DNA of 64,000 nucleotides from Pseudolabrys sp. (GTDB taxonomy: Bacteria > Pseudomonadota > Alphaproteobacteria > Rhizobiales > Xanthobacteraceae). Made by a program: the position numbers and the translations under genes. Of this stretch, positions 45,297 through 56,615 are shown in pieces (position 1 is the first letter of the stretch; every line of letters starts with the position of its first letter). The notes beneath the pieces were generated by a model. It was not told where the DNA came from, did not search any database, and saw only the letters and a program-made list of their open reading frames with translations. The stretch lies in assembly GCA_026125895.1 (NCBI GenBank), contig JAHCKG010000010.1, forward strand, positions 78,652 to 142,651. Direction: 5' to 3'.

Positions 45297-45773
45297 ATGA
45301 AGTTGGACAAGATCGACCTGCGCATCTTGTCGGTGCTGCAGCGCGACGGGCGGATCACCAAACTGGGGCTGGCCGAAGCGGTACATCTGTCGCCGGCGGC
45401 GTGCTGGGAGCGGCTGCGGCGGCTGGAGACCGCCGGCGTCATCCGCGGCTACTCCGCCATGATCGACATGGAGAAGATCGCGCGGCGCGTCACCGTGCTG
45501 GTCGAGATCACCCTGAAGAGCCACCGCCAGACCGACTTCCAGCTGTTCGAGGCGGCAGTCGCCCGCGAGCCGTCCATCGTGTCGTGCCATGCCACCGGCG
45601 GCGGCATCGACTACATGCTCAAGGTCATCGCCCCGGACATCGACGCCTACCAGAAGACCATCGACCGGCTGCTGACCTCGGAAGTCGGCATCGACCGCTA
45701 CTTCACTTATGTCGTGACCAAGATCGTCAAGGACGGCCCCGAGCCCGCCGATCTCGCGGAAACGTCGGCGTAG
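45297..45773 (+). CDS. Lrp/AsnC-family regulator of the ectoine locus
   Basis: A 158-aa feast/famine regulator. Residues about 1-60 are an AsnC-type HTH (LDKIDLRILSVLQRDGRIT, LSPAACWERLRRLETAGVI) and about 70-150 the RAM ligand-binding domain (TVLVEITL, VSCHATGGGIDYMLKVIAPD). AsnC/DoeX proteins accompany enuR and doe genes in many ectoine clusters and act as activators. It is divergent from enuR; the operator block begins 22 bases before the start codon. Confidence 0.9.
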   Translation: MKLDKIDLRILSVLQRDGRITKLGLAEAVHLSPAACWERLRRLETAGVIRGYSAMIDMEKIARRVTVLVEITLKSHRQTDFQLFEAAVAREPSIVSCHATGGGIDYMLKVIAPDIDAYQKTIDRLLTSEVGIDRYFTYVVTKIVKDGPEPADLAETSA

Positions 45774-45797
45774 CGATCTGACTGTGGCGGGGCGAGG

Positions 45798-45845
45798 TTG
45801 GAGCGGGCGAAGGGAATCGAACCCTCGTATGCAGCTTGGGAAGCT
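45798..45845. repeat. attL: 48-base direct repeat (displaced tRNA-Gly 3' end)
   Basis: Identical over 48 bases to 56474-56521. It carries the anticodon arm 3' strand, T arm and acceptor 3' end of the tRNA-Gly gene on the minus strand but no 5' half, so it is not a functional tRNA. Confidence 0.95.
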
Positions 45846-46182
45846 AGACGTTTCCCATAATGATCAAGACCATAGCTGCAAAACATCCGTTTCGGAGCCT
45901 CAATCGCATCAAAGGGTTGCGGGCGTCAAGCAAAACGAATTCCCGGTCATCATTGCCGAATGGGACCGCAACGCCCGCGAGGTCATGCGGGTTGCTCTCG
46001 ACTACTACAACGGCCGCCACACCATCAATGCGCGCGTCTGGTATCACGACGACGGCGGATTGAAGCCGGGCAAGGCCGGCGTCACCCTCGCGATTAAGCA
46101 CCTGCCGGCGCTCGCCGACGCGCTGGCGAAGGCCGAGCAGCGCGCCCGTGATTTGGGGCTGATCGAAGGGGGTGCACAATGA
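45829..46182 (+). CDS. PC4-like (transcriptional coactivator p15) protein
   Basis: About 117 aa. The C-terminal part (AEWDRNAREVMRVALDYYNGRHTINARVWYHDDGG, in pieces) is a PC4/YdbC-type single-strand nucleic-acid-binding fold. The problem is the start: in the integrated form the only in-frame ATG (45829) lies inside attL and a GTG (45784) lies in host DNA, while family members begin shortly before IAEW. In the excised circle the frame would continue upstream through attP to a GTG overlapping the integrase stop. It overlaps the following gene by four bases (ATGA). Function in the element is unknown; DNA binding during replication or transcription is a guess. Confidence 0.6.
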   Translation: MQLGKLDVSHNDQDHSCKTSVSEPQSHQRVAGVKQNEFPVIIAEWDRNAREVMRVALDYYNGRHTINARVWYHDDGGLKPGKAGVTLAIKHLPALADALAKAEQRARDLGLIEGGAQ

Positions 46183-46973
46183 CCGCCCTCGCCAGCCTGA
46201 CGCCGGCCGCCGCGTGCTTCTATGACCGGCTGAATGCCGCGCGCAATGTCGACGAAATCGACGGCATCGTGCGCGGGATATGGGCCGCCTACGGCAATGC
46301 CGAGTTCGGCGACGAGGAAGCCGCCTTCCTGCAAGAGGCTGCGAATAACCGTCGGCCGATGGGGCGCGCTGCCTCTAGCATTCCGGGCGTCGTCACCATG
46401 AAGCCGATCGGCAAGCTGCGCAGCCGTCTCGGCTCGCGGTTCACGCCGCGCCAGCGGCAACGCTCGCCCGATCGGCAAGCCTCTCGCGATCGGCGCCGCC
46501 GCCTGGGCGGATCAAGCGCCCTGCCCGACACGTTGCGCCACCACTACACCGAAGGCCAGCGCGCGGTGCTCTGCATCATCGCTGGCGAGATCAAGCACCA
46601 CGGCGTTTGCGACTTGCCGATCGACAAGATTGCGGCGCTCGCGGGTGTCTGCCGGACGACGGTGCAGACCACGCTGCACGAGGCGCGACGGCTCCGTCAC
46701 ATCAGGATCACGGAACGTCCGGTGCCCGGCCGGAAGCACCTGCCGAACCTGATCGAGATCGCATCTGCGGAGTGGCGGACGTGGCTCAAGCGCGGTCCAT
46801 CGGCGCACCGCCCGATAGGGTCCAAAACGGTGAATTTGGTGAGCACCACGAAGAACACAGACAGACAGAAAGAGGGTTTCGCACGAAAGGAAAGGCCGAA
46901 AGAGGCTGATCGAGGGGAGCCATGGGGCTTCTACTGGGTATCCAGCCAGCTATCGCGAGGGTGCAAGGCATGA
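46179..46973 (+). CDS. Helix-turn-helix protein of the element
   Basis: A 264-aa basic protein. The central part (about 105-185; TEGQRAVLCIIAGEIKHHGVCDLPIDKIAALAGVCRTTVQTTLHEARRL, in pieces) is a winged helix-turn-helix of the type in plasmid and phage replication or control proteins. The ends are Arg-rich and probably disordered. Its translation is coupled to both neighbours by ATGA overlaps. It might be a regulator or replication initiator; a small-terminase role cannot be excluded because that function is otherwise unassigned. Confidence 0.65.
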   Translation: MTALASLTPAAACFYDRLNAARNVDEIDGIVRGIWAAYGNAEFGDEEAAFLQEAANNRRPMGRAASSIPGVVTMKPIGKLRSRLGSRFTPRQRQRSPDRQASRDRRRRLGGSSALPDTLRHHYTEGQRAVLCIIAGEIKHHGVCDLPIDKIAALAGVCRTTVQTTLHEARRLRHIRITERPVPGRKHLPNLIEIASAEWRTWLKRGPSAHRPIGSKTVNLVSTTKNTDRQKEGFARKERPKEADRGEPWGFYWVSSQLSRGCKA

Positions 46974-47287
46974 GAGCAGGGGAATTAGACCGACAGATCG
47001 TGATCCAGCGTGAGGAAGTCGTCGGCGACGACGGCTTCGGCAACGAGGTCACGGATTGGGTCAACTATGCGATCCGGGCGGCTTCCGTGATCCAGCAAGG
47101 CGGGCGGGAGTTCTTCGCGCAAGCGGCGATCCAATCGGAGCGCCGCGTCGTGTTTCGCTGCCGATGGGTGGAGAGCGTGACGCCGGCCTATCGGGTGATC
47201 TGCGATGGCGTGACGTACAATATCCAAGAGGCGCGGCGCATCGGGCGCAAGATTGCTCTCGAACTGCACTGCACGGCGGGCGGCTGA
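46970..47287 (+). CDS. Phage head closure/head-tail adaptor protein
   Basis: A 105-aa protein matching the short head-closure adaptors (SPP1 gp16/HK97 type). Characteristic features are the N-terminal MRAGELDRQIVIQR, the central G-rich FGNEVTDW, the REFFAQAAIQSERRVVFRCRW core and the C-terminal IQEARRIGRKIALELHC. Such adaptors form the ring under the portal and normally receive the tail. Chosen start ATG 46970 overlaps the preceding stop; the longer frame is shadow. Its presence without tail genes is notable. Confidence 0.8.
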   Translation: MRAGELDRQIVIQREEVVGDDGFGNEVTDWVNYAIRAASVIQQGGREFFAQAAIQSERRVVFRCRWVESVTPAYRVICDGVTYNIQEARRIGRKIALELHCTAGG

Positions 47288-47289
47288 CG

Positions 47290-47619
47290 ATGAAGCGTGC
47301 CGATCCGTATTACAAGACCAAGGCGTGGCAGGTCTTGCGCAAGGCCGCTCTGCTTCGCGATCTTTACACCTGTGTCGTGCCTGGCTGCGGTCAGCCGGCG
47401 TATGCGGTCGACCATATCAAAGCGCGGCGGGCCGGCGGTGCTGATCGTCTCGATAACCTGCGCTCTCTCTGCAAAGACCACGATCATGCTGTGAAAGAAA
47501 CCCGCACAGGCGAGCGGGCGAATGCCGGCAAGCTCGTGGTCAAGGGCTGCTTTGCGGACGGCTCGCCGCGCGATCCATCGCATCCTTGGTTCACGGGCGG
47601 CCGGGGGTTCCAACATTGA
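47290..47619 (+). CDS. HNH endonuclease
   Basis: A 109-aa HNH nuclease of the kind that assists terminase in cos-packaging HK97-like phages. Metal-finger cysteines frame the motif: CVVPGCG, then AVDHIKARRAGG (His pair), then NLRSLCKDHDHAV (Asn and terminal His). It starts two bases after the adaptor stop and precedes the large terminase by 60 bases. Association of HNH with terminase is typical of head-packaging modules, including capsid-forming satellites. Confidence 0.9.
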   Translation: MKRADPYYKTKAWQVLRKAALLRDLYTCVVPGCGQPAYAVDHIKARRAGGADRLDNLRSLCKDHDHAVKETRTGERANAGKLVVKGCFADGSPRDPSHPWFTGGRGFQH

Positions 47620-47679
47620 AACGCGATCGGCCCGGGACCGGCGTGGGACAGCAAAAAACACTTACTTGGATTTGAAATC

Positions 47680-49320
47680 ATGGGATTACGAGGCATCGGA
47701 GCGCAACCGATAGAGCGCAAAAAACGGGGCCGCCCTGCCAAGCCGAAGGCGTGGGAAGCCCCTGGGTTGACGCGGGCCGAGCGGGTACGTGCGTTTATCG
47801 AAAGCCTGCCGATCACGTCCGGTGTGCACGCTGGAAAACCTTTCAAAATTCGCGACTGGCAATGGTCGGAGATCATCGAGCCGCTGTACGCGACCGATGG
47901 CGAAGGTCGACGGCGCAAGCGCAAGGCGCTGATCACCATCCCGCGCAAGAACGGCAAGACGCAGCTCGCCGCGGCGCTGGCGCTGTGTCATCTCGTTGGA
48001 CCGGAAGCGGAGCAGCGCGGCCAGGTGTACTCGGCTGCGGCGGATCGCAAGCAAGCCGCGCTGATCCTGAAAGAGCTGGTCGCGTTCGTGCGCGAGGTCG
48101 ATTGGCTGGCGAAGCGGATCATCATCCGCGAGCACAGCAAGACCCTTGAGGACGTGGTGACCGGCTCGACTTATGAGGCGCTGTCGAGTGATGCCCGAAA
48201 GGCGCACGGTCTGAACGTGTCGTTTGCGATCATGGACGAACTGGCGCAGTGGCCGAAGCGGGACCTTTACGAAGCCCTCACCACGGGCGGCGCGGCGCGC
48301 GCGGAGCCGCTGTATGTGACGATCTCGACGCAAAGCCACGACAAAAATTCCGTCATGTCGGAGCTGGTGCAGTATGCCGAGCGGGTGCGCGACGGTGTGA
48401 TCGAGGATGACACGTTCCTGCCCGTGATTTTCGCCGCGCCGGACGAAGCGGACCCGTGGTCGGAGGAAACATGGCGGGCCTGCAACCCGGCGCTTGGCGA
48501 CTTCCGATCGCTCGATGAAATGCGCGCGGCTGCGGCCGAAGCTAAGGCGCTGCCGGCGCGCGAGCCCGCTTTCCGGCTGCTGTATCTCAATCAGCCCGTC
48601 GACGCGACGGCGCGCTTCCTGAATGCTCGCGACTGGAAGGCTTGCAAGGCCGACGATACTCCCGGCCTGTTCGGGCAAACGCTGCTGATGAAACAGCGCT
48701 GCATTCTCGGCCTCGATCTCTCGTCGACGACGGACCTAACCGCGCTCGTCGCATGGTTTCCGGCGACGCACGATCTGCGCGCGTGGTTCTGGATGCCGGC
48801 TGACAACATCGAGGAAGCCGAGCGCCGCGACCACGTCCCGTATCGGCTCTGGCGCGGGCAAGGGTTCATCGAGGCCACGCCCGGCCGCGCGATCGACAAA
48901 TCGTTCGTGGTGCATCGCCTGGGCGAACTGACTAAGGAATACGACGTGCAATTCTGTGCGGCCGATCGCTGGCGTCTCGACGAGATCAGGCGGCTGATGG
49001 ACGAGGCGGGCGTGAAGATCGAGCTGCAAGAGTTCGGACAAGGCTGGCGCGATATGGGGCCGGCAATCGACGCTTTCGAGACGGCCGTGCTTCGCCGCGA
49101 GCTTCGGCATCCTGGGCATCCGGTGCTCGATTGGAACGTCGCCAATGCGGTCACTGTCAGCGACCCTACCGGCGCGCGTAAGCTCGTGAAGGATCGGGCA
49201 TCGGGCCGAATTGACGGCCTCGTGGCTGCCGTGATGGCAATCGGGGCGGCCGTGAAGGTCGCCCCGAAGAAAGAAAGCGTCTACAAGTCGCGCGGCCTTG
49301 TGGCCGTAAAGGTGGCTTAG
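47680..49320 (+). CDS. Phage terminase large subunit
   Basis: A 546-aa DNA packaging motor. The N-terminal ATPase has Walker A ITIPRKNGKTQLAA (about residue 87) and Walker B FAIMDELAQW (about residue 186), followed by the coupling motif ISTQSHDK. The C-terminal RNase H-like nuclease begins LGLDLSSTTDLTALVAWF (about residue 347), with further acidic residues in FCAADRW. It belongs to the HK97/phiC31-type Terminase_1 group. The usual small-subunit gene is not directly upstream; the HNH gene is. Intact and presumably functional. Confidence 0.93.
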   Translation: MGLRGIGAQPIERKKRGRPAKPKAWEAPGLTRAERVRAFIESLPITSGVHAGKPFKIRDWQWSEIIEPLYATDGEGRRRKRKALITIPRKNGKTQLAAALALCHLVGPEAEQRGQVYSAAADRKQAALILKELVAFVREVDWLAKRIIIREHSKTLEDVVTGSTYEALSSDARKAHGLNVSFAIMDELAQWPKRDLYEALTTGGAARAEPLYVTISTQSHDKNSVMSELVQYAERVRDGVIEDDTFLPVIFAAPDEADPWSEETWRACNPALGDFRSLDEMRAAAAEAKALPAREPAFRLLYLNQPVDATARFLNARDWKACKADDTPGLFGQTLLMKQRCILGLDLSSTTDLTALVAWFPATHDLRAWFWMPADNIEEAERRDHVPYRLWRGQGFIEATPGRAIDKSFVVHRLGELTKEYDVQFCAADRWRLDEIRRLMDEAGVKIELQEFGQGWRDMGPAIDAFETAVLRRELRHPGHPVLDWNVANAVTVSDPTGARKLVKDRASGRIDGLVAAVMAIGAAVKVAPKKESVYKSRGLVAVKVA

Positions 49321-49610
49321 TGCCGGGTTTCGATCAGGTTCTGCAGCGCATCCCACGCAGCATTCTTACTGCGATGCTTACCCGGAATGCTTAGCCATCG
49401 CTGCTGAGCTTTTCGCGGCCCCGGCTGGTATTCTTTCGGATGAACATAGAACAGCGCAGGGAATTCGGTAGCGCAGTGCTTCAACTCGTCGGGGTCAACG
49501 TCGATCATTAAGGCAACCCATCCGCCCTTTCGGCCATTTCCCTCTTGCATTACGTCGAGGGGAAACCATCCAGGGGCAGGGCCTTCGAGAAATTCAAGCG
49601 CAGCCATCAC
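49317..49610 (-). CDS. Hypothetical protein, reverse-strand cassette of the element
   Basis: A 97-aa soluble protein with no recognised domain. The sequence has a predicted alpha/beta look (LMIDVDPDELKHCATEFPALFYVHP) with several Trp and Gly and a basic central region (GPRKAQQRWLSIPGKHRS). It overlaps the preceding reverse gene by four bases, so the two form a small operon running against the packaging genes. Reverse-strand pairs between phage head genes are often accessory (moron-like, regulatory or defence-related) genes. The stop overlaps the terminase stop by four bases. Function unknown. Confidence 0.6.
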   Translation of the reverse strand: MMAALEFLEGPAPGWFPLDVMQEGNGRKGGWVALMIDVDPDELKHCATEFPALFYVHPKEYQPGPRKAQQRWLSIPGKHRSKNAAWDALQNLIETRH

Positions 49611-49837
49611 TGCACCGCCTTTGCTGCGGCCTCATCTGCACCGCTAATGATGGTAGCCAAAGCGCGCGCGGCGATCGCGCCGCCCGAAGCTGGGTCCGCT
49701 TCGTAATCGAGGTCTTCTAGCAAGTGGCTTAGCGCGAACCGAAGGCACTCGCTAAGGGTCGGGGGTGAGAAGGCATCGCCGCTCACTGGCCCAGATCGGT
49801 TGCGCGTTGCTTCAGCGATAAGCTCATCGACGGTCAT
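49607..49837 (-). CDS. Small hypothetical protein, reverse-strand cassette of the element
   Basis: A 76-aa acidic, mostly helical protein (TVDELIAEATRN, LSECLRFALSHLLEDLDYEAD, AARALATIISGADEAAAKA). AGGAG nine bases before ATG 49837 decides the start over an ATG 33 bases upstream. Overlap of four bases with the 97-aa gene downstream suggests coupled translation and joint function. No family recognised. The size, charge and partner arrangement recall two-gene accessory cassettes, but nothing more can be said. Confidence 0.55.
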   Translation of the reverse strand: MTVDELIAEATRNRSGPVSGDAFSPPTLSECLRFALSHLLEDLDYEADPASGGAIAARALATIISGADEAAAKAVQ

Positions 49838-50009
49838 GGTGTGTCGCTCCTGTGCGTTAAAAAACGCCAAGGCGGACTCAGCCCGTGCACTCGTGATATT
49901 TGGAGATCGATCATCGGACGGCCCGCCTACGGCTGTCTGGTGGTAAGTCGCGGCCGACCCTGCCAGGGGTCGGTCGCGGCGCGACCATCATACACAGGGG
50001 AGGCGCGAG

Positions 50010-50183
50010 ATGACAATTCGTAACGACCTTGAGGCCGTAATCCGTGGGGAGCTAGACGACTGCGAACGCGCCCTCAAGCGCGAAGATCCTGAAAAGGCGC
50101 TGCGGGAGCTGAGGGACGCGATCGACAAGCTGACCGAAATCGCGCGGAAGGTCGGTCATTTGGAACGCGCGGCCCGGAACTGA
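50010..50183 (+). CDS. 57-aa helical protein
   Basis: A short gene: ATG at 50010 preceded by GGGGAGG, stop at 50181-50183. The product is highly charged and predicted to be one or two long helices, likely a coiled coil (LEAVIRGELDDCERALKRED, ELRDAIDKLTEIARKVGHLE). It could be a scaffold, an anti-repressor-sized regulator or an antitoxin-like protein; none of these can be shown. It lies between the reverse cassette and the operator-like inverted repeat. Confidence 0.55.
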   Translation: MTIRNDLEAVIRGELDDCERALKREDPEKALRELRDAIDKLTEIARKVGHLERAARN

Positions 50184-50206
50184 CTTTTCCCCAGTCCGTA
50201 TAACTC

Positions 50207-50231
50207 TACGAACTTTCTTGACTAGTTCGTA
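50207..50231. promoter_or_regulatory. Operator-like inverted repeat within the element
   Basis: Perfect 8-base arms TACGAACT and AGTTCGTA with a 9-base spacer; a further half-site CGACGAAC lies a few bases downstream. A TTGACT box (50219-50224) lies inside it. It is 42 bases upstream of the next gene, so it looks like the control site of the capsid operon or of the gene at 50273. Confidence 0.5.
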
Positions 50232-50272
50232 AAAATCGACGAACCTGCCGCCTGCGTTGGATCAGGGCGGCT

Positions 50273-51028
50273 ATGGCATCAGTTCACGGTTTCAATCAGG
50301 CGCTGGCGAAGGTCCGGGGGGTTCCTGCGGCGACCATCGAAGCTTATTCGCGCGCGCTCCGGAGCAAAGGTGTCTTGCCTAAGACGCGGCGCGGCGGAGG
50401 CGGGCCCTTCGCGTCCGTCATGGCCGGTTACATGCTCTCGGCAGTCTTGCGCGGCTCGCCGTCTGCCGCCGCCGAAAACGCACGCGAGGTCGGCGATCTG
50501 GTCATCTACGACGGCGGCGTGACGTTCTTAAAGCCGTTGCATGATGCAACATTGGAAATGTTCGGTTGGGCTGACGACCTAACCTTTGCTCAAATGATCG
50601 GTTGGCTCATCGACCGTCATGTCGACGGCACGATTGGCCAATTCATCGACGTAGAGAAAGGCTACCGGATCGAGGTCGACCGGTATTGGACGAAAGCCAC
50701 GTTGAAATGCCACCCCGCAGCGCCATTGCTCGATAAACATCTCGACGGCTGGCGCAAATTCCTCGCGCTTTCCGGCGTCCCAGAGAGCGATATTAGCGCT
50801 TCACTTCCCGATCGCAATCCGGACGGATCGCTCCGTCGCCCGATGGAAGTTAACTTTCACACGCCGATTTTGCACGAGGTCAAGGTCAGCTATGGCGTTG
50901 ACCGTGAGCGCAACCGCAATGCTTGGCGCCAATTTCGCGAACTGAAAGACGAGCGTCAGGGCGATCGATACGGGTCCGAAAGCGTCACGCAGAAAACCCT
51001 CATGGCGGTTGCAGAGGTGTTCAAGTGA
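50273..51028 (+). CDS. Hypothetical protein of the element with possible HTH N-terminus
   Basis: A 251-aa protein. Residues about 8-60 (LAKVRGVPAATIEAYSRALR, LPKTRRGGGGPF) look like a DNA-binding helix-turn-helix with a basic Gly-rich arm. The rest (about 75-250) is a mixed fold with no known match (FLKPLHDATLEMFGWADDL, MEVNFHTPILHEV). Position before the capsid genes and the putative DNA-binding head would suit a regulator or an unusual small terminase. Its stop overlaps the next start (GTGA). It is not recognised as a member of any terminase family I know. Confidence 0.6.
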   Translation: MASVHGFNQALAKVRGVPAATIEAYSRALRSKGVLPKTRRGGGGPFASVMAGYMLSAVLRGSPSAAAENAREVGDLVIYDGGVTFLKPLHDATLEMFGWADDLTFAQMIGWLIDRHVDGTIGQFIDVEKGYRIEVDRYWTKATLKCHPAAPLLDKHLDGWRKFLALSGVPESDISASLPDRNPDGSLRRPMEVNFHTPILHEVKVSYGVDRERNRNAWRQFRELKDERQGDRYGSESVTQKTLMAVAEVFK

Positions 51029-51276
51029 GCCCCCGCACACAATTTGAGAAAGACTGGATCGATGGCCCTGCGCTGGAGCTATCAATGCTCCCGGTCGAGC
51101 AGCGTGGCGAGAAAATCATCGCGATGATTGGCGAGATCAAAGCATGGATCGCCGGCGAATGGCCTGATCTCACACCCGAGCAGGTGCAGCGCGCCACCAA
51201 CTCCTACGCATTTTCGATTATCCAGCGCGCGGTCGAAGTCTCCAAAGTGAGCAATGGAGCGATAGGCCACGCATGA
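51025..51276 (+). CDS. Small hypothetical protein, coupled
   Basis: An 83-aa protein starting at a GTG that overlaps the stop of the preceding gene (GTGA). Mostly helical (LPVEQRGEKIIAMIGEIKAW, LTPEQVQRATNSYAFSII) with Trp residues. It overlaps the next frame by ATGA. No family recognised. The chain of overlaps from 50273 to the capsid gene argues that it is a real gene. Confidence 0.55.
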   Translation: MSPRTQFEKDWIDGPALELSMLPVEQRGEKIIAMIGEIKAWIAGEWPDLTPEQVQRATNSYAFSIIQRAVEVSKVSNGAIGHA

Positions 51277-51491
51277 AATTCTCCCGGCAAAATCGCGAGG
51301 TCGCGCGGCGCGGCCTACTGCATCCGGGAAGCCGGGAGGATCGGCCCGCGTCCGGGCAATTCCTTTCCCTGATGCAGACGCCGCTGCAATCCCGCCGTGA
51401 GGCGGTATGTCCCCGTGCCGGATGGTCTGGCCCGATGGATCGCTTGGCCCGTCGTGAGACGCGCCTTTCCCATGATGGAGAACTACAATGA
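51273..51491 (+). CDS. Possible 72-aa protein between coupled genes
   Basis: A basic, Arg-rich 72-aa frame joined by ATGA overlaps to the gene before it and the capsid gene after it. The composition (RRGLLHPGSREDRPASG) is not clearly protein-like and resembles an out-of-frame reading, so it may only serve translational coupling or be spurious. Low confidence. Confidence 0.3.
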   Translation: MKFSRQNREVARRGLLHPGSREDRPASGQFLSLMQTPLQSRREAVCPRAGWSGPMDRLARRETRLSHDGELQ

Positions 51492-52810
51492 AGCTTCATG
51501 AACTGCAGGAGGCGCGCGCAAATGCCGTCGTGGCTATGCGCGCGCTCTCCGATCTCGCTGAAACCGAAAAACGCGATCTCACGTCCGACGAGGACAAGAA
51601 GTTCGGCGATCTCAAGAAAGAGATCGGCGATCTCGACAAGAAAATCGGCCGCGCGCAAACGCTGGCCGATGCCGAGCGCAGCGCCCCGGCCGTCGTGCAT
51701 GGCAAGCTCGGCGACGGTGCGTTCGAGGAGCGCGCCCGCGATTTTTCCGTCGTTAAGGCTATTCGCGCTTCGCTGCCGCGTGATCTCGGCGGCGGCGACG
51801 TTGATGCCGGGTTCGAGCGCGAGATCAGCGCCGAAGTAGCCCGCCGCAGCGGTCGCGCCTTCCAAGGCATCGCCGTTCCCGATCAGGTGTTCTTGCAGGA
51901 AAAGCGGACGTTACTCGTCGGATCGAGCGCGGCCGATCTCGTGCCGAACGTGCATCGGGCAGACCTGTTCATTGACCGCCTTCGCTCGCAGCTCGCGACC
52001 GAACGGCTTGGCGCAACGGTGCTCGACGGCCTGATTGGCACGGTCGACATTCCGCGCCAGACCGGCAGCTCGACGGCGCAGTGGGTCGGCGAAGATGGTT
52101 CGCTCACCGAAACCGACGCGGCATTCGACGATGTGACACTCGCGCCCAAGACGGTCGGCGCGATGACGAGCTACAGCCGGCGCACGCTCCTGAATGCCTC
52201 GCCGTCGATCGAACAGATTGTCCGCAATGACCTTGCGGCCATTATCGCACGCGCGATCGACAACAAGGCCATGCTGGGCGATGCATCGAACAACACCCCG
52301 CGCGGCATCGTGCACACGAGCGGCGTCACCGAGATCGCCACGGGCGGGGAACCGACCTGGGACAAGATGTTGGAGTTCATTGCGTCCGTCGAGGCGGAAG
52401 ACGCCAACATGGGGTCGCTGGGCTGGGCACTGAATGCCTGGGCCGTGAAAAAGCTGCGCTCCACCACCAAGGTCACGGCGGATGGAAGCGCCGGCTTCCT
52501 GATGGACGCGCCCGGCCAACTCGCCGGCTACGCTGCGGCAGTAACGTCCGCTCTGCCCGGCGCGCTCACGGATGGCGGCTCTCCCGGCTCTCCGATCCCG
52601 GCCACGCTGATCTATGGCGACTGGTCGTCGCTGCTGATCGGCTATTGGTCCGGCGTCGACATCCTGCTCAACCCCTATGAGACCACGGCCTATGCCAAGG
52701 GCCGCGTGCTCGTGCGCGCCATGCGCGACGTGGACGTGCAGGTGCGTCATCCGGAAAGCTTCGCTTTCGCCGACGACATGGCCGTCACCCCGGCCGAGGA
52801 AGAGGCGTAA
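51488..52810 (+). CDS. HK97-fold major capsid protein
   Basis: A 440-aa capsid protein. Residues about 1-65 form a charged coiled-coil delta/scaffold domain (KKFGDLKKEIGDLDKKIGRAQ). The mature domain runs from about 110, with the N-arm and E-loop, the TAQWVGEDGSLTETDAAFDDVTL region typical of HK97-type capsids (about 195-215), the spine helix near SPSIEQIVRNDLAAIIARAIDNKAML, and P-domain strands to DVQVRHPESFAF. GGAG lies upstream of the ATG. The protease gene follows four bases after the stop. Intact. Confidence 0.94.
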   Translation: MKLHELQEARANAVVAMRALSDLAETEKRDLTSDEDKKFGDLKKEIGDLDKKIGRAQTLADAERSAPAVVHGKLGDGAFEERARDFSVVKAIRASLPRDLGGGDVDAGFEREISAEVARRSGRAFQGIAVPDQVFLQEKRTLLVGSSAADLVPNVHRADLFIDRLRSQLATERLGATVLDGLIGTVDIPRQTGSSTAQWVGEDGSLTETDAAFDDVTLAPKTVGAMTSYSRRTLLNASPSIEQIVRNDLAAIIARAIDNKAMLGDASNNTPRGIVHTSGVTEIATGGEPTWDKMLEFIASVEAEDANMGSLGWALNAWAVKKLRSTTKVTADGSAGFLMDAPGQLAGYAAAVTSALPGALTDGGSPGSPIPATLIYGDWSSLLIGYWSGVDILLNPYETTAYAKGRVLVRAMRDVDVQVRHPESFAFADDMAVTPAEEEA

Positions 52811-52814
52811 GCCG

Positions 52815-53369
52815 ATGACGATCGAACGCCGTTGCGCGATCGAGCTGCGGGCCGGTGGGGACAAAAAGTCCCCCCGGCTTGTCGGCCATGCCGCGATCTT
52901 CAACTCCCCGTCGCAAGACCTTGGGGGCTTTACCGAGATCGTGCTGCCCGGCGCGTTCACGCGCACGCTAAAGACCGATCGCGACCCGCTCGCGCTCGTG
53001 CAGCACATGCCGCAACTCGTGCTTGGTCGCCGATCCGCCGGAACGCTCAAGCTGTCCGAAGATAGCAAGGGTCTCGCCTTCGAGATCGACGTGCCGGACA
53101 CCACGACGGCGCGAGACCTGATTGTCAGTGTCGAGCGCGGCGACGTGCGCGGCGCTTCCTTCGCATTCTCGACGCCGGCAGGCGGGGACCGTTGGGAGGT
53201 TCGCGGCGACAAGGTGATCCGCGAGCTGATCGACGTCGACCTTCACGAGATCACGATCACGGCGCAGCCGGCCTATCTCGACACGTCGGTCGCCCGGCGC
53301 AGCTACGAATTGAAATTCGCGCCGACGCCGCGCCTTCGTGCCGTGCGCCGCTTTCTGGAAACGGTGTGA
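52815..53369 (+). CDS. HK97 prohead protease
   Basis: A 184-aa protease of the U35 (HK97 gp4) family that cuts the capsid delta domain. The fold is marked by LVGHAAIFNSPSQDLGGFTEIVLPGAF, LVQHMPQLVLGRRSAGTLKL with the catalytic His, and RGASFAFSTP with the nucleophile Ser. The gene order here (capsid, protease, portal) is the reverse of the HK97 order portal-protease-capsid. The ATG at 52815 follows the capsid stop by four bases; an upstream extension is shadow. Confidence 0.92.
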   Translation: MTIERRCAIELRAGGDKKSPRLVGHAAIFNSPSQDLGGFTEIVLPGAFTRTLKTDRDPLALVQHMPQLVLGRRSAGTLKLSEDSKGLAFEIDVPDTTTARDLIVSVERGDVRGASFAFSTPAGGDRWEVRGDKVIRELIDVDLHEITITAQPAYLDTSVARRSYELKFAPTPRLRAVRRFLETV

Positions 53370-53371
53370 GC

Positions 53372-54607
53372 ATGCAACACGCAACAGTCTCGACCGAAAA
53401 GCGATCGACGCCGACGACCTGGGACCTTATGCGAACTGGCGGCGACTACGCCTCCGACGCCGGCACCTACGTTTCGCCGTTCCTCGCGGAAAACCTTTCG
53501 ACCGTGTTCGCCTGTGTGCAGGTGATCTCCGAGACGGTCGCCATGCTTCCCGTGTTGCTCTACCGCAAAGGCGCGAACGGATCGCGCCTCGCGGATCTGT
53601 CGCACCCGCTGGCGCTGCTGTTCAGCGGAGATCCGAACGAGCGCCAGACGGCTGCCGAGTTCATCGAAATGGTGACGGCGCACTGCCTCTTGCGCGGCAA
53701 CGGCTACGCCGAGATCAAGCGCGACAACCAGGGCCAGGTCGTGGGCCTCGTGCCGTTCCATCCCGATCATGTCAGCGTGGTTCGCATCCCGCGCACCGGC
53801 CGCTATGCCTATGACGTGTCGCTGCCCGAAGGCGGCACGCGCCGGCTGCTGCCGGAAGAAATGTTCCACCTCAAAGATCGCACCGATGACGGCGTGATCG
53901 GTAAGTCGCGACTCGCGCGGACCCGCGAGACGTTCGGCGCGGCGATGGCGACGGAACGCTATGCGGCGTCGACATTCAAGAACGGCGCGAGCATGTCGGG
54001 CATCCTCTCGCATCCTGAGCACCTTGGCGAGGAAGCGACAAAGAACCTGCGAGACAGCTTCAAGGCCACCTATGCGGGCGCGGACAAGGCCGGCGAGGTC
54101 GCCGTGCTCGAGGAAGGCTTGAAGTGGCAGCAAATCAGCGTGTCGCCCGACGACGCGCAAATGCTCGAAAGCCGCCGCTTTTCCGTCGAGCAACTGGCGC
54201 GCATCTATCGCGTGCCCGGCCCGGTGATCGGCGACTACAGCGGCGGCAACAACGCCAGCATTCAAGAGGTCGGGCGCTGGTTCTACTCGCACACGATCAT
54301 GCCGTGGCTCAACAAGTGGGAGCGCACGATCGAGCATAGCTTGCTGTCGACGCAGGCGCGGCGCTCCTACGAGGTCGAGATCGACGCCGACTTGCTTATG
54401 CGTGGCGACATGCTCACGCGGTTTCAGGCGTACCGCATCGCTCGCGAGATCGGCGTCTACAACGCCAACGAGCTTCGCAAGTTCGAGAAGGCCAACCCGC
54501 GCACCGATCCGGAAGCGGAAACCTATCTCGCGCCCTCCAACATGCAGCCCGAGCAAACCGGCCGGCCGATCGCCGATCGCGGCGGCGGCAACGCGGCGGA
54601 GGAATAG
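53372..54607 (+). CDS. Phage portal protein (HK97 family)
   Basis: A 411-aa portal that forms the dodecameric entry ring for DNA. The HK97-type pattern is complete: YVSPFLAENLSTVFACVQVISETVAMLPVLLYRK near the N-terminus, CLLRGNGYAEIKRD, and ARIYRVPGPVIGDYSGGNNASIQE (about 283-305), with a C-terminal Pro/Glu-rich tail. It starts two bases after the protease stop and is followed two bases later by the connector gene. Confidence 0.94.
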   Translation: MQHATVSTEKRSTPTTWDLMRTGGDYASDAGTYVSPFLAENLSTVFACVQVISETVAMLPVLLYRKGANGSRLADLSHPLALLFSGDPNERQTAAEFIEMVTAHCLLRGNGYAEIKRDNQGQVVGLVPFHPDHVSVVRIPRTGRYAYDVSLPEGGTRRLLPEEMFHLKDRTDDGVIGKSRLARTRETFGAAMATERYAASTFKNGASMSGILSHPEHLGEEATKNLRDSFKATYAGADKAGEVAVLEEGLKWQQISVSPDDAQMLESRRFSVEQLARIYRVPGPVIGDYSGGNNASIQEVGRWFYSHTIMPWLNKWERTIEHSLLSTQARRSYEVEIDADLLMRGDMLTRFQAYRIAREIGVYNANELRKFEKANPRTDPEAETYLAPSNMQPEQTGRPIADRGGGNAAEE

Positions 54608-54609
54608 CC

Positions 54610-55212
54610 ATGTCGCTCTATCTGGTCGAAGGCCCCGAACAAGACGACGTGCTTAGCCTTGCCGACGCCAAGCTGCATCTGCGGGTTGATTTCGACGACG
54701 ACGACGAGCTGATCGAAAGCTACGTCGCGACGGCAATCCAGAACATCGATGGGCGCGACGGCTGGCTTGGCCGTGCGATCGGCGAGCAGACTTGGGAGCT
54801 TCGGCTTTCGGAGTTCTGCGGCAACGAGATCAAAATCCCGCTGCCGCCGCTGATCGAAGTCGAAAGCGTGAAATACTATGACGCCGACGATGCCTTGCAG
54901 ACGCTCGCGCCGGGCGACTACGAGGTCGTGGGCATAGGCGGTTTCGGCAAGGCGCGCGTCGTGCTCAAGAGCGGCAAGCGGTGGCCGGAAATTGCGAAGC
55001 GTGCCGAGAACGTCGTGGTCCGTTTCCGCGCCGGGTATCCGACCGATGGCGGAAGTCCAGCGGCCCCGACCGTGCCCGCGCCGATACTTACGGCGATCAA
55101 GCGCCAGGTCGCCACCATGTACGAGAACCGCGAGGCCGTCGTGGTCAATGCGACCGTCACGAAACTGCCGGGCGGCGTCGAGGCGCTGCTTACGCCGCTG
55201 CGGGTGTGGTGA
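54610..55212 (+). CDS. Phage head-tail connector (gp6-like)
   Basis: A 200-aa connector protein (HK97 gp6/phiE125 gp8 family) forming the ring below the portal. Features: MSLYLVEGPEQDDVLSLADAKLHLRVDFDDDDELIESYVATA, the typical N-terminal helices, then GWLGRAIGEQTWEL, IPLPPLIEVESVKYYD and VRFRAGYP. The C-terminus predicts a helix against the portal. It lies two bases after the portal gene and shares one base with the next start. Confidence 0.9.
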   Translation: MSLYLVEGPEQDDVLSLADAKLHLRVDFDDDDELIESYVATAIQNIDGRDGWLGRAIGEQTWELRLSEFCGNEIKIPLPPLIEVESVKYYDADDALQTLAPGDYEVVGIGGFGKARVVLKSGKRWPEIAKRAENVVVRFRAGYPTDGGSPAAPTVPAPILTAIKRQVATMYENREAVVVNATVTKLPGGVEALLTPLRVW

Positions 55213-55412
55213 TGGCTAGAAGCGCGTGCACCTTCAGACAGCAAGACGTGACGCGCGCGCTGCGCGCCACGCTTGCGGCTGGTGTCGCGGTACTGCGGGT
55301 GGAGATCGATAAGGACGGAAAAATTATTCTTGTGACGGCCGGCGAGACGCCATCAGCACCGGCCGATGATCTGGACCGGGAGTTGGCAGAGTTCGAGGCG
55401 CGTAATGGTTAA
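55212..55412 (+). CDS. 66-aa hypothetical protein before the integrase
   Basis: A small protein with an RHH-like/compact alpha-beta look (QQDVTRALRATLAAGVAVLRVEIDKDGKIIL, in parts) and an acidic tail. Its ATG overlaps the connector stop (TGATG), and its stop lies inside the start region of the integrase gene. Similar small ORFs often precede integrases in rhizobial elements. Possible role: excision control. Not proven. Confidence 0.6.
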   Translation: MARSACTFRQQDVTRALRATLAAGVAVLRVEIDKDGKIILVTAGETPSAPADDLDRELAEFEARNG

Positions 55413-56421
55413 GGTTGATTTGAAGGGCATCGCGAAGGTCAAGGCCAAAGGCCATACCTATTACTACGCTTGGCGCGGCGGACCGCGCCTCCGTGGCGAG
55501 CCGGGCACGCCCGAGTTCATGGCATCGTACAATGAGGCCATTGAGGATCGGCGCACGCCCGATAAGAGCCGTTTCCGTTTCGTCGTTGCCGACTACAAGG
55601 CGAGCGCAGAATACAGGAAGCTGGCCACGTCGACGCGCGAGCAATGGGGCAAGTGGCTCGACCGCATTGCCGAGTATTTCGGCGAGCTGCGGATCGCTCA
55701 ATTCGACAGGCCCGAGAAAATCCGGCCGGTGATCCGGCGTTGGCGCAATCAATGGGCTGAGACGCCGCGCACCGCCGACTACGCATTGCAAGTTCTGTCG
55801 CGCGTAATCGCGCACGCCGTTGACCCTCTCGGCAAGATCGCCGGCAATCCGTGCGAGGGCATCAAGCACCTGTACAACAATGATCGCTCCGAGATCATTT
55901 GGACGGATGCCGATGTCGAGCACATCAAGAAAAAGTGCTCCGATGAGATCGCCCTTGCAGTCGATCTGGCGGGCCACACTGGTTTGCGGCTGGGCGATCT
56001 TCTGCGGTTGTCCTGGTCTCATGTCGGCGACGACGCTATCGTACTCGCGACGGGCAAGAGCCGTCACCGCCGCGAGGCGATAATTCCGCTCTACGGCGCG
56101 CTTCGCGATGTTCTGGCGCGTATTCCCAAGCGCGCGACCACGATCTTGACGAACAGCCGCCGTCGCCCGTGGACGGCTGACGGCTTCGGCAGCTCCTTCA
56201 ATAAGGCCAAGATCGACGCTGGCCTGTCTGAGCGGGATTTGCACTTCAACGATTTGCGGGGAACGGCGGCGACGAAGTTCTACATCGCCGGTTTCAGCAT
56301 GCGCGAGATCGCTGAAACGCTCGCGTGGGAAGAAGAGAACGTCGAGAAAATCATCCGTCGCTACGTCGGACGTGCGGCCGCCATCAAGGCGCGGATCAAG
56401 AAGCTGGAGGCCAGAGAGTGA
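55405..56421 (+). CDS. int: Tyrosine recombinase/integrase of the element
   Basis: A 338-aa phage-type integrase. The N-terminal part is a small DNA-binding and core-binding region; the catalytic domain (about 175-325) has Arg in HTGLRLGDLLRL, a beta-hairpin Lys in ATGKSRHRREAI, His and Arg in LHFNDLRGTAAT, and Tyr in IIRRYVGRAA. The second-histidine position reads Trp in LAWEEENVEK, which is tolerated in the family. It ends 52 bases before attR, as expected for an integrase recognising tRNA-Gly. Start ATG 55405 overlaps the preceding stop. Confidence 0.92.
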   Translation: MVKVDLKGIAKVKAKGHTYYYAWRGGPRLRGEPGTPEFMASYNEAIEDRRTPDKSRFRFVVADYKASAEYRKLATSTREQWGKWLDRIAEYFGELRIAQFDRPEKIRPVIRRWRNQWAETPRTADYALQVLSRVIAHAVDPLGKIAGNPCEGIKHLYNNDRSEIIWTDADVEHIKKKCSDEIALAVDLAGHTGLRLGDLLRLSWSHVGDDAIVLATGKSRHRREAIIPLYGALRDVLARIPKRATTILTNSRRRPWTADGFGSSFNKAKIDAGLSERDLHFNDLRGTAATKFYIAGFSMREIAETLAWEEENVEKIIRRYVGRAAAIKARIKKLEARE

Positions 56422-56432
56422 ACAATTCCTGC

Positions 56433-56456
56433 AAAACCGTCGACAAAACCGTCGAC
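56433..56456. repeat. Tandem 12-base duplication beside attR
   Basis: AAAACCGTCGAC occurs twice head to tail just inside the right end. Position and size fit integrase arm-type binding sites; not proven. Confidence 0.4.
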
Positions 56457-56473
56457 GCAAATCCAGCTAAGTC

Positions 56474-56521
56474 TTGGAGCGGGCGAAGGGAATCGAACCC
56501 TCGTATGCAGCTTGGGAAGCT
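56474..56521. repeat. attR: 48-base direct repeat within tRNA-Gly
   Basis: Identical to 45798-45845. The 48 bases cover the tRNA-Gly 3' part from the anticodon stem to just past CCA. The 5' part of the tRNA lies outside the element, so integration left the gene intact. Confidence 0.95.
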
Positions 56522-56548
56522 GCCGTTCTACCATTGAACTACGCCCGC
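56475..56548 (-). tRNA. tRNA-Gly (anticodon CCC)
   Basis: On the minus strand the 74-base sequence begins GCGGGCG and ends CGCCCGC-T-CCA, so the acceptor stem pairs perfectly and CCA is encoded. The anticodon stem GCAGC/GCTGC holds the 7-base loop TTCCCAA, giving anticodon CCC (56514-56516). The T arm GAGGGTTCGATTCCCTT is typical. It is the integration site of the 10.7 kb element. Confidence 0.95.
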
Positions 56549-56615
56549 ATCGGCGGGGAGATTTAGCACAGCCCGACAAAAACGCCAGACGGCCGCGGGC
56601 GCGCCTGGCGTCGGC

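Follow-up and report, generated by a model that had tools for sequence, protein, structure and literature searches.

Capsid-forming phage-inducible chromosomal islands (cf-PICIs) are described, in the portions of the publications drawn on here, as integrated islands that carry their own head, terminase large subunit (TerL) and HNH endonuclease genes and use helper tails (PMC10690885, PMC11389934). They are called widely distributed across Bacteria (PMC10690885), and Gram-negative PICIs are portrayed as combining an integrase, AlpA and a primase (PMC10111431). The present analysis concerns an element of about 10.7 kb within a stretch of 64,000 nucleotides (the window) from the alphaproteobacterium Pseudolabrys sp. 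(contig JAHCKG010000010.1, positions 78,652 to 142,651). An earlier note on this DNA had read the element as a candidate satellite that forms its own capsid. Based on its genes and on those of its relatives, the element is likely (probability roughly 0.82) a capsid-forming phage satellite of an alphaproteobacterial family of mostly ~10-11 kb that would borrow tails.

By description, the element resembles cf-PICIs in having capsid, protease, portal, connector, TerL and HNH genes and no tail genes found, and differs from them in its order, HNH-TerL-cargo-capsid-protease-portal. By analogy it may work like the cf-PICIs. It is not filed as one, because terminase small subunit (TerS), AlpA and primase were not recognised in the window and the likeness is by description only. 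The Streptomyces satellites MulchRoom and MiniFlayer are likewise described as encoding capsid and packaging genes and leaning on a helper, but differ, by description only, in their hosts, their virulent helpers and their terminal repeats (PMC10690885). Among the papers listed in literature searches, none, judged by title and abstract opening, named or described the present family or a link between satellites and gene transfer agents (GTAs), and no account of cf-PICIs in Rhizobiales was found.

Borders and gene content of the element

The element is bounded by a perfect 48-bp direct repeat (45798-45845 and 56474-56521, 100% identical) with a spacing of 10,676 bp. The right copy overlaps an intact tRNA-Gly(CCC) on the minus strand (56475-56548), which is the sole tRNA found by ARAGORN in the 64-kb window and was the only match to Rfam at gathering thresholds over 45700-56600. 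In the source genome (G000, a bin of 50 contigs, 82% complete) exact copies of the repeat's first 29 bp are present at the two element ends and nowhere else. An insertion of ~10.7 kb with perfect 48-bp ends in a tRNA gene, as proposed before, is thereby borne out. Comparison with a possible empty tRNA-Gly site gave partial support: the right flank is syntenic in two genomes of the same genus (G028 and G026), both without a close capsid, but the left flank is non-syntenic within 1.5 kb. The features of the element, named by Pfam, PHROGs and NCBIfam, are as follows (ORF, open reading frame).

45798..45845, no strand: attL, 48-bp repeat, a partial copy of the 3' part of tRNA-Gly, identical to 56474-56521
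45829..46182, plus: PC4-type (transcriptional coactivator p15) DNA-binding protein, start uncertain (PF02229, E 6.9e-9); clusters with seven relatives
46179..46973, plus: winged-helix/helix-turn-helix (wHTH) protein, presumed replication or regulatory gene (phrog_15967, E 1.4e-50, function unknown; 10-member alignment)
46970..47287, plus: head closure protein of the SPP1 gp16 type (PF05521, E 1e-22; TIGR01563)
47290..47619, plus: HNH endonuclease adjoining TerL (PF01844, phrog_2323)
47680..49320, plus: TerL with ATPase and nuclease domains (PF03354, PF20441; phrog_9, E 2.2e-140)
49317..49870, minus: cargo, two small ORFs of 97 and 87 aa without Pfam or PHROGs family match; homologues in some relatives
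50010..50183, plus: small uncertain ORF of 57 aa (Pfam: nothing above the cut-off)
50273..51028, plus: u251, a 251-aa protein with HTH-like N-terminus, candidate TerS-like DNA-recognition or regulatory gene by position only; clusters with eight relatives
51025..51491, plus: two small ORFs of 83 and 72 aa, overlapping each other and the start of the capsid gene (ORF calls)
51488..52810, plus: HK97-type major capsid protein, separate from the protease (PF05065, E 7e-40; TIGR01554)
52815..53369, plus: prohead protease S78 (PF04586, E 3.3e-40)
53372..54607, plus: HK97-type portal protein (PF04860, E 1.2e-99; TIGR01537)
54610..55212, plus: head-tail connector/adaptor of the gp6/gp8 type (phrog_442, E 2.8e-31; TIGR02215)
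55212..55412, plus: 66-aa protein directly ahead of the integrase gene, only by its position a possible excision factor; matches in L012, L027, L028, L032, L103, L107 and L105
55405..56421, plus: tyrosine integrase (PF00589, E 9.8e-17)
56474..56521, no strand: attR, 48-bp repeat within the intact tRNA-Gly (repeat comparison and ARAGORN)
56475..56548, minus: tRNA-Gly(CCC), integration target (ARAGORN, Rfam)

The set of integrase, HK97 capsid, protease, portal, TerL, HNH, connector and head closure genes, and the order HNH, TerL, then capsid, protease and portal, agree with the earlier note, which had omitted the PC4-type, wHTH, 251-aa and 83-aa genes. Most gene junctions are overlapping or abutting within a few bases, and none of the head genes contains a stop; the earlier note had called the recognisable genes intact and mostly coupled. 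The integrase is 70-71% identical to those of two relatives (L027 and L028; L numbers denote loci), which sit beside tRNA-Gly(TCC). The 83-aa protein is 81% identical in the nearest relative, L011, and 64% identical in L037, and a tblastn search of L011 with the two minus-strand cargo ORFs gave no match. For the 66-aa protein there was no family match in Pfam or PHROGs.

Missing functions

Among the 17 window ORFs scanned against Pfam and PHROGs, no tail, baseplate or lysis family was matched, as had been stated, and by its lack of tail and lysis genes the element does not classify as a complete prophage. AlpA and primase were not matched in the same scan, in which the integrase was present.

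A TerS was likewise not recognised among the window proteins by Pfam, PHROGs or NCBIfam, in line with the previous reading, and no gene lies between the end of HNH (47619) and the start of TerL (47680). The HNH protein matches part of phrog_4581, which is annotated as TerS, alongside many HNH families. In the elements compared, the slot before the capsid gene holds either a u251-type protein (the window and eight relatives) or a MerR-type wHTH protein (L012, L027, L031 and L032). Folding of u251 yielded a weak model (pLDDT 59.7) whose best fold match had E 1.4, with none below E 1. The MerR-type slot protein matched MerR regulators, CvkR being best (E 1.7e-5). By its position, the u251 or MerR-type slot protein could be a packaging-specificity factor or a late regulator.

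The accessory ORFs of 25 relatives (138 ORFs, called by a simple predictor made for this analysis) matched 20 Pfam families, including connector, integrase, HTH/MerR/AlpA, terminase and AAA/Toprim/DnaB-type families and no tail, baseplate or lysis family. Two of these ORFs were matched by Pfam AlpA and two by each of the PHROG primase and helicase families, and the four terminase matches correspond to flanking GTA-type terL genes. With PHROGs, no tail family was found among the 25 of 80 families listed. These scans covered the relatives other than L179, L183, L188 and L227. As far as scanned, the satellite family is tail-less with one exception, L112.

Intactness and selection

The window and L011 share open frames for six genes (wHTH, TerL, capsid, protease, portal and connector), and all head genes of the window are open. 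Over nine genes compared with L011, the ratio of nonsynonymous to synonymous substitution rates (dN/dS) was 0.05-0.21, with values of 0.05 for capsid, 0.08 for TerL, 0.09 for protease, 0.16 for portal, 0.12 for connector and 0.07 for HNH. TerL, capsid, protease and portal gave 0.05-0.22 against L011, L012, L037 and L027 and are under purifying selection, and no stop was found in the head genes of the element. Higher ratios were obtained against L012 for head closure (0.54), PC4 (0.66) and wHTH (0.34), and for the integrase against L012 (0.62) and L037 (0.56). The synonymous rate (dS) spreads from 0.29 to 1.67 across the genes shared by the window and L011, a sign of mosaic exchange.

Related elements

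In IMG/VR, the window capsid led to 12 loci and the window TerL to 13, the two sets overlapping, and a TerL profile yielded 37 loci from 89 pattern matches. GTDB contigs contributed three loci out of 54 pattern matches, from Rhodoplanes, Reyranella and Dongia. With the TerL profile (E <= 1e-60), matches came from 46 of the 397 genomes searched in the order and from 14 of the 385 in the class, the own genome included, with several contexts that look like full phages; at E <= 1e-25 the capsid profile matched 12 of the 397 and 6 of the 385, again including the own genome, satellites being mixed with phage-type long ORFs. Among the 60 nearest genomes, eight matched the window capsid at E <= 0.001, namely the own genome and seven at 24-31% identity.

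The core order HNH-TerL-(variable cargo)-capsid-protease-portal is common to 29 related elements or contigs, and 20 elements have placed ends. Near-identical contigs L025 and L026 were counted once, L013 is the contig of L037, and L033 that of L112. Capsid identity to the window ranges from 32 to 97% among relatives with tblastn maps, and the stretch from TerL to capsid is the most divergent part between relatives. PC4, wHTH and head closure, which make up the left end, are retained in L011, L012, L015, L016, L032 and L037, whereas L179 and L183 retain capsid-protease-portal-integrase with no TerL match. Of the 26 elements compared, 23 have a member of the integrase cluster, none being found in L029 (a fragment), L039 and L113; the integrase of L039 lies outside this cluster and was recognised from its translation. 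In most relatives the integrase is located right of the head genes, and left of them in L019, L035 and L043. Two cargo genes of relatives (L018:8112-8687 and L029:6933-7502) match phrog_4603, annotated as sialyltransferase.

The placed ends give lengths of 9.7-12.1 kb (n=20), and 17 of the 20 elements measure 10.1-11.1 kb. Repeat-based lengths in bp are 10,676 (window), 10,763 (L011), 10,367 (L012), 10,752 (L015), 10,337 (L016), 10,717 (L019), 9,787 (L024), 10,664 (L025), 10,489 (L028), 9,683 (L030), 10,642 (L031), 10,468 (L032), 10,436 (L037), 10,116 (L043), 10,210 (L103), 11,081 (L105), 11,005 (L107), 12,134 (L112) and 10,882 (L113, which has two possible ends), while L039, with a 125-bp end repeat, was read as a circle of 10,874 bp carrying HNH, TerL, capsid, protease, portal and integrase. 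More than half of the ends rest on repeats shorter than 30 bp (L011, L012, L024, L031, L032, L103, L105, L112, L113 and the four GTA-embedded elements with an 8-bp core). Integration sites across the family comprise tRNA-Gly (three anticodons), tRNAs for Leu, Pro, Asn, Arg, Asp, Ala and Ser, tmRNA, and GTA terL.

Capsid and TerL phylogenies

In the final capsid tree, one branch with support 100/99 separates 30 satellites (window included) and a head-only module on an Acinetobacter plasmid from 12 phage-type capsids, which derive from ORFs of 594-842 aa and are presumably fused to the protease. Relative to a first tree, seven fragments and seven distant phage rows (L111, L115, L117, L119, L022, L045 and L055) were removed and L227, L232 and L233 added; because the distant phage rows were dropped, the split holds against the nearer phage-type capsids only. 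In the first tree (54 rows) the window falls in an 18-row clade of satellites only, with support 100/100. The TerL tree, made by a quick method from 51 rows picked by hand, puts the window into a clade (SH-aLRT 95) whose 20 rows are 19 satellites and one fragment. Genome contexts L109-L121 and L180-L187 were called 'phage' from their layout and long ORFs rather than from scans for tail genes, and L182 and L184 are short contigs. The suggestion that the element belongs to a distinct lineage is supported by these clades. The best-ranked capsid of 50,697 phage records is 37.0% identical to that of the window, whereas same-layout elements reach 97%, so that no full phage stands out as an obvious parent.

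The Acinetobacter schindleri plasmid module (L232, NZ_CP044475.1 34348-57547) shares with the window element a separate capsid (35.7% identical), protease, portal, HNH, TerL, connector and head closure, and differs in its order, capsid-protease-portal-HNH-TerL, and in being plasmid-borne. Neither a tail gene nor an integrase was seen in the listed stretch of the plasmid, whose gene table is incomplete. When E. coli genomes were searched at the DNA level with the capsid-portal-HNH stretch of this module, nothing matched. The module is located beside RepM and is possibly a plasmid-borne capsid-forming element.

Relatives within GTA terL

Four relatives from different metagenomes (L015, L016, L025/L026 and L037) are integrated in a GTA-type terL rather than in a tRNA and are co-oriented with it. 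Their ends (L015:3041/13793, L016:120/10457, L025:2429/13093 and L037:5788/16224) share the 8-bp core ATGTGCGA, and the GTA-type TerL is truncated. On the left flank a Terminase_6-type terL stops soon after the DEMCEF codons, and on the right flank it resumes at DEMCDF and runs to the gene end, or in L016 to the contig end. Most full-length matches to the truncated terL end at residues 419-422, the break point, and the site is unbroken in 12 of 12 terL loci of the window's genus and in one of the window's genome. Behind L025 lies an RcGTA-type cluster, with matches to RcGTA 6tba_8A for a 1,300-aa hub (E 7.5e-258) and to Rcc01687 for the capsid (E 6.7e-96), the other genes being named by eye from order and sequence. 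Counting the own genome, 49 of the 60 relatives' genomes gave GTA-type terL matches.

That insertion into GTA terL is special to satellites was weakened by other elements at the same core. Genome G992 (contig C11; L225/L226) carries there a 17.9-kb phage-like element with a related integrase, whose content was read by eye, and L225 showed no match to GTA portal, protease or capsid beside the break. In G112 (contig C3; L230) another insert with a related integrase was placed by one end only and its content likewise read by eye. In six genomes of the same genus (G030, G023, G035, G020, G009 and G012) GTA-type terL matches stop near residue 184-203, for which decay, rearrangement or another insertion is possible. 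G004 (L149/L151) has a second GTA-type terL between protease and capsid of its GTA cluster.

Helper-embedded PICIs (Tommasini et al. 2023, PMC10111431), as far as described in the portions used, resemble these four relatives, which lie within the late-type gene terL and are co-oriented; they differ in that the gene interrupted here belongs to a GTA-type cluster, not to a prophage, and in that the window element is located in tRNA-Gly. The phrase 'gene transfer agent' is absent from the main text of PMC10111431.

In the source genome, the search with PF05065, the one capsid family used, identified two capsid genes, that of the element and one in a GTA-type cluster on contig C34 (L150/L141). This cluster looks decayed, although assembly error is possible: its TerL is only partly aligned and contains a stop, its portal lies in two frames, and no g7-g15 match was found in the next 18 kb. 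A lone GTA-type terL is present on contig C1 (L140). The best PDB match of the window capsid was 8gta_A (E 1.5e-35), RcGTA not being among its two matches.

Discussion

Taken together, the absence of tail and lysis matches, the open and selected head genes and the lack of a parent phage support the view that the element is a capsid-forming satellite. Upon induction, for which an incoming or resident phage is the probable trigger, the integrase would excise the element as a circle, and the PC4-type and wHTH genes may aid its replication or regulation. HNH and TerL would then load it into a small, self-encoded HK97 head (~10.6 kb), which the portal, adaptor and head-closure proteins would render ready for a tail, while the tail and cell lysis would be supplied by a helper.

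Several observations weigh against this interpretation. TerS was not identified in the element, and no resident helper was seen in the source genome, in which capsids were searched by PF05065 only and whose bin is 82% complete. In L011, the closest relative, the head-closure gene is in two pieces (L011:1195-1442, ~67 bp missing; a break or a sequencing error), and the capsid gene is in two pieces in L029 and L034, as is TerL in L049 and L051. Among ten right-end ORFs inspected, a tail-assembly-type gene was found in a Dongia relative (L112:4455-5096, phrog_32, E 4.9e-41), which is remote from the window (TerL 48% and capsid 36% identical), and since only 25 of 80 PHROG families are listed for the relatives, rarer tail matches are possible. 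The first, wider capsid tree needs five changes to account for the satellites as a whole; a single clade of satellites and fragments was not rejected in it (p 0.137). In the TerL tree remote satellites intermix with phages such as L111 and L045. Given this mixture, TerL was probably exchanged between satellites and phages, and more than one origin is possible.

Loss of tail and lysis genes on a single occasion, leaving a stripped or decaying and now inert prophage, would account for head genes of the HK97 type that are ordinary phage genes, for the terminase, capsid and portal order also found in phage PAJU2 (TerL 37.5% identical), and for relatives with head genes in two pieces. We regard it as improbable, given that the same core set recurs across many sites, in 29 related elements or contigs, within a narrow size range and under purifying selection, and that the head-only capsids are separate from the nearer phage-type capsids. 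Still less probable, indeed very unlikely, is a GTA-like relic or domesticated particle maker, the alternative that had been raised earlier. A cluster of head genes in a lineage with many genes of the GTA type fits such an origin, but the element carries its own integrase and att repeats, unlike the integrase-free RcGTA-like cluster, the GTA-type capsid and cluster of the genome sit elsewhere (C34), and the window capsid matches 8gta_A best, with RcGTA outside its two matches.

Within the satellite interpretation, and overlapping with it in probability, the family may be specialised on GTAs, integrating in their clusters and using their tails or regulation for spread. Four co-oriented relatives at one 8-bp core in GTA-type terL, the RcGTA-like cluster behind L025 and the presence of terL in 49 of 60 genomes speak for this. 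The window element itself sits in a tRNA, however, the GTA cluster in the source genome looks decayed, and the elements of G992 and G112 share the core, so that this group of integrases may simply favour the site; we consider specialisation rather unlikely. In its fullest form, which we put forward just as tentatively, an old satellite lineage would live off GTAs by plugging into GTA terL and blocking GTA packaging while integrated, and, with its own head and TerL, would ship itself on the tails of GTAs or GTA-type phages.

As a putative capsid-forming satellite, the element would add to a known kind an alphaproteobacterial family of compact satellites that presumably steal tails; from their steady size of ~10.6 kb, an HK97 head of very small size is predicted. 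The relatives in GTA terL connect satellites with gene transfer agents directly and in a way that can be tested. If the family does live off GTAs, a gene exchange device that serves the host would become the vehicle of a parasite.

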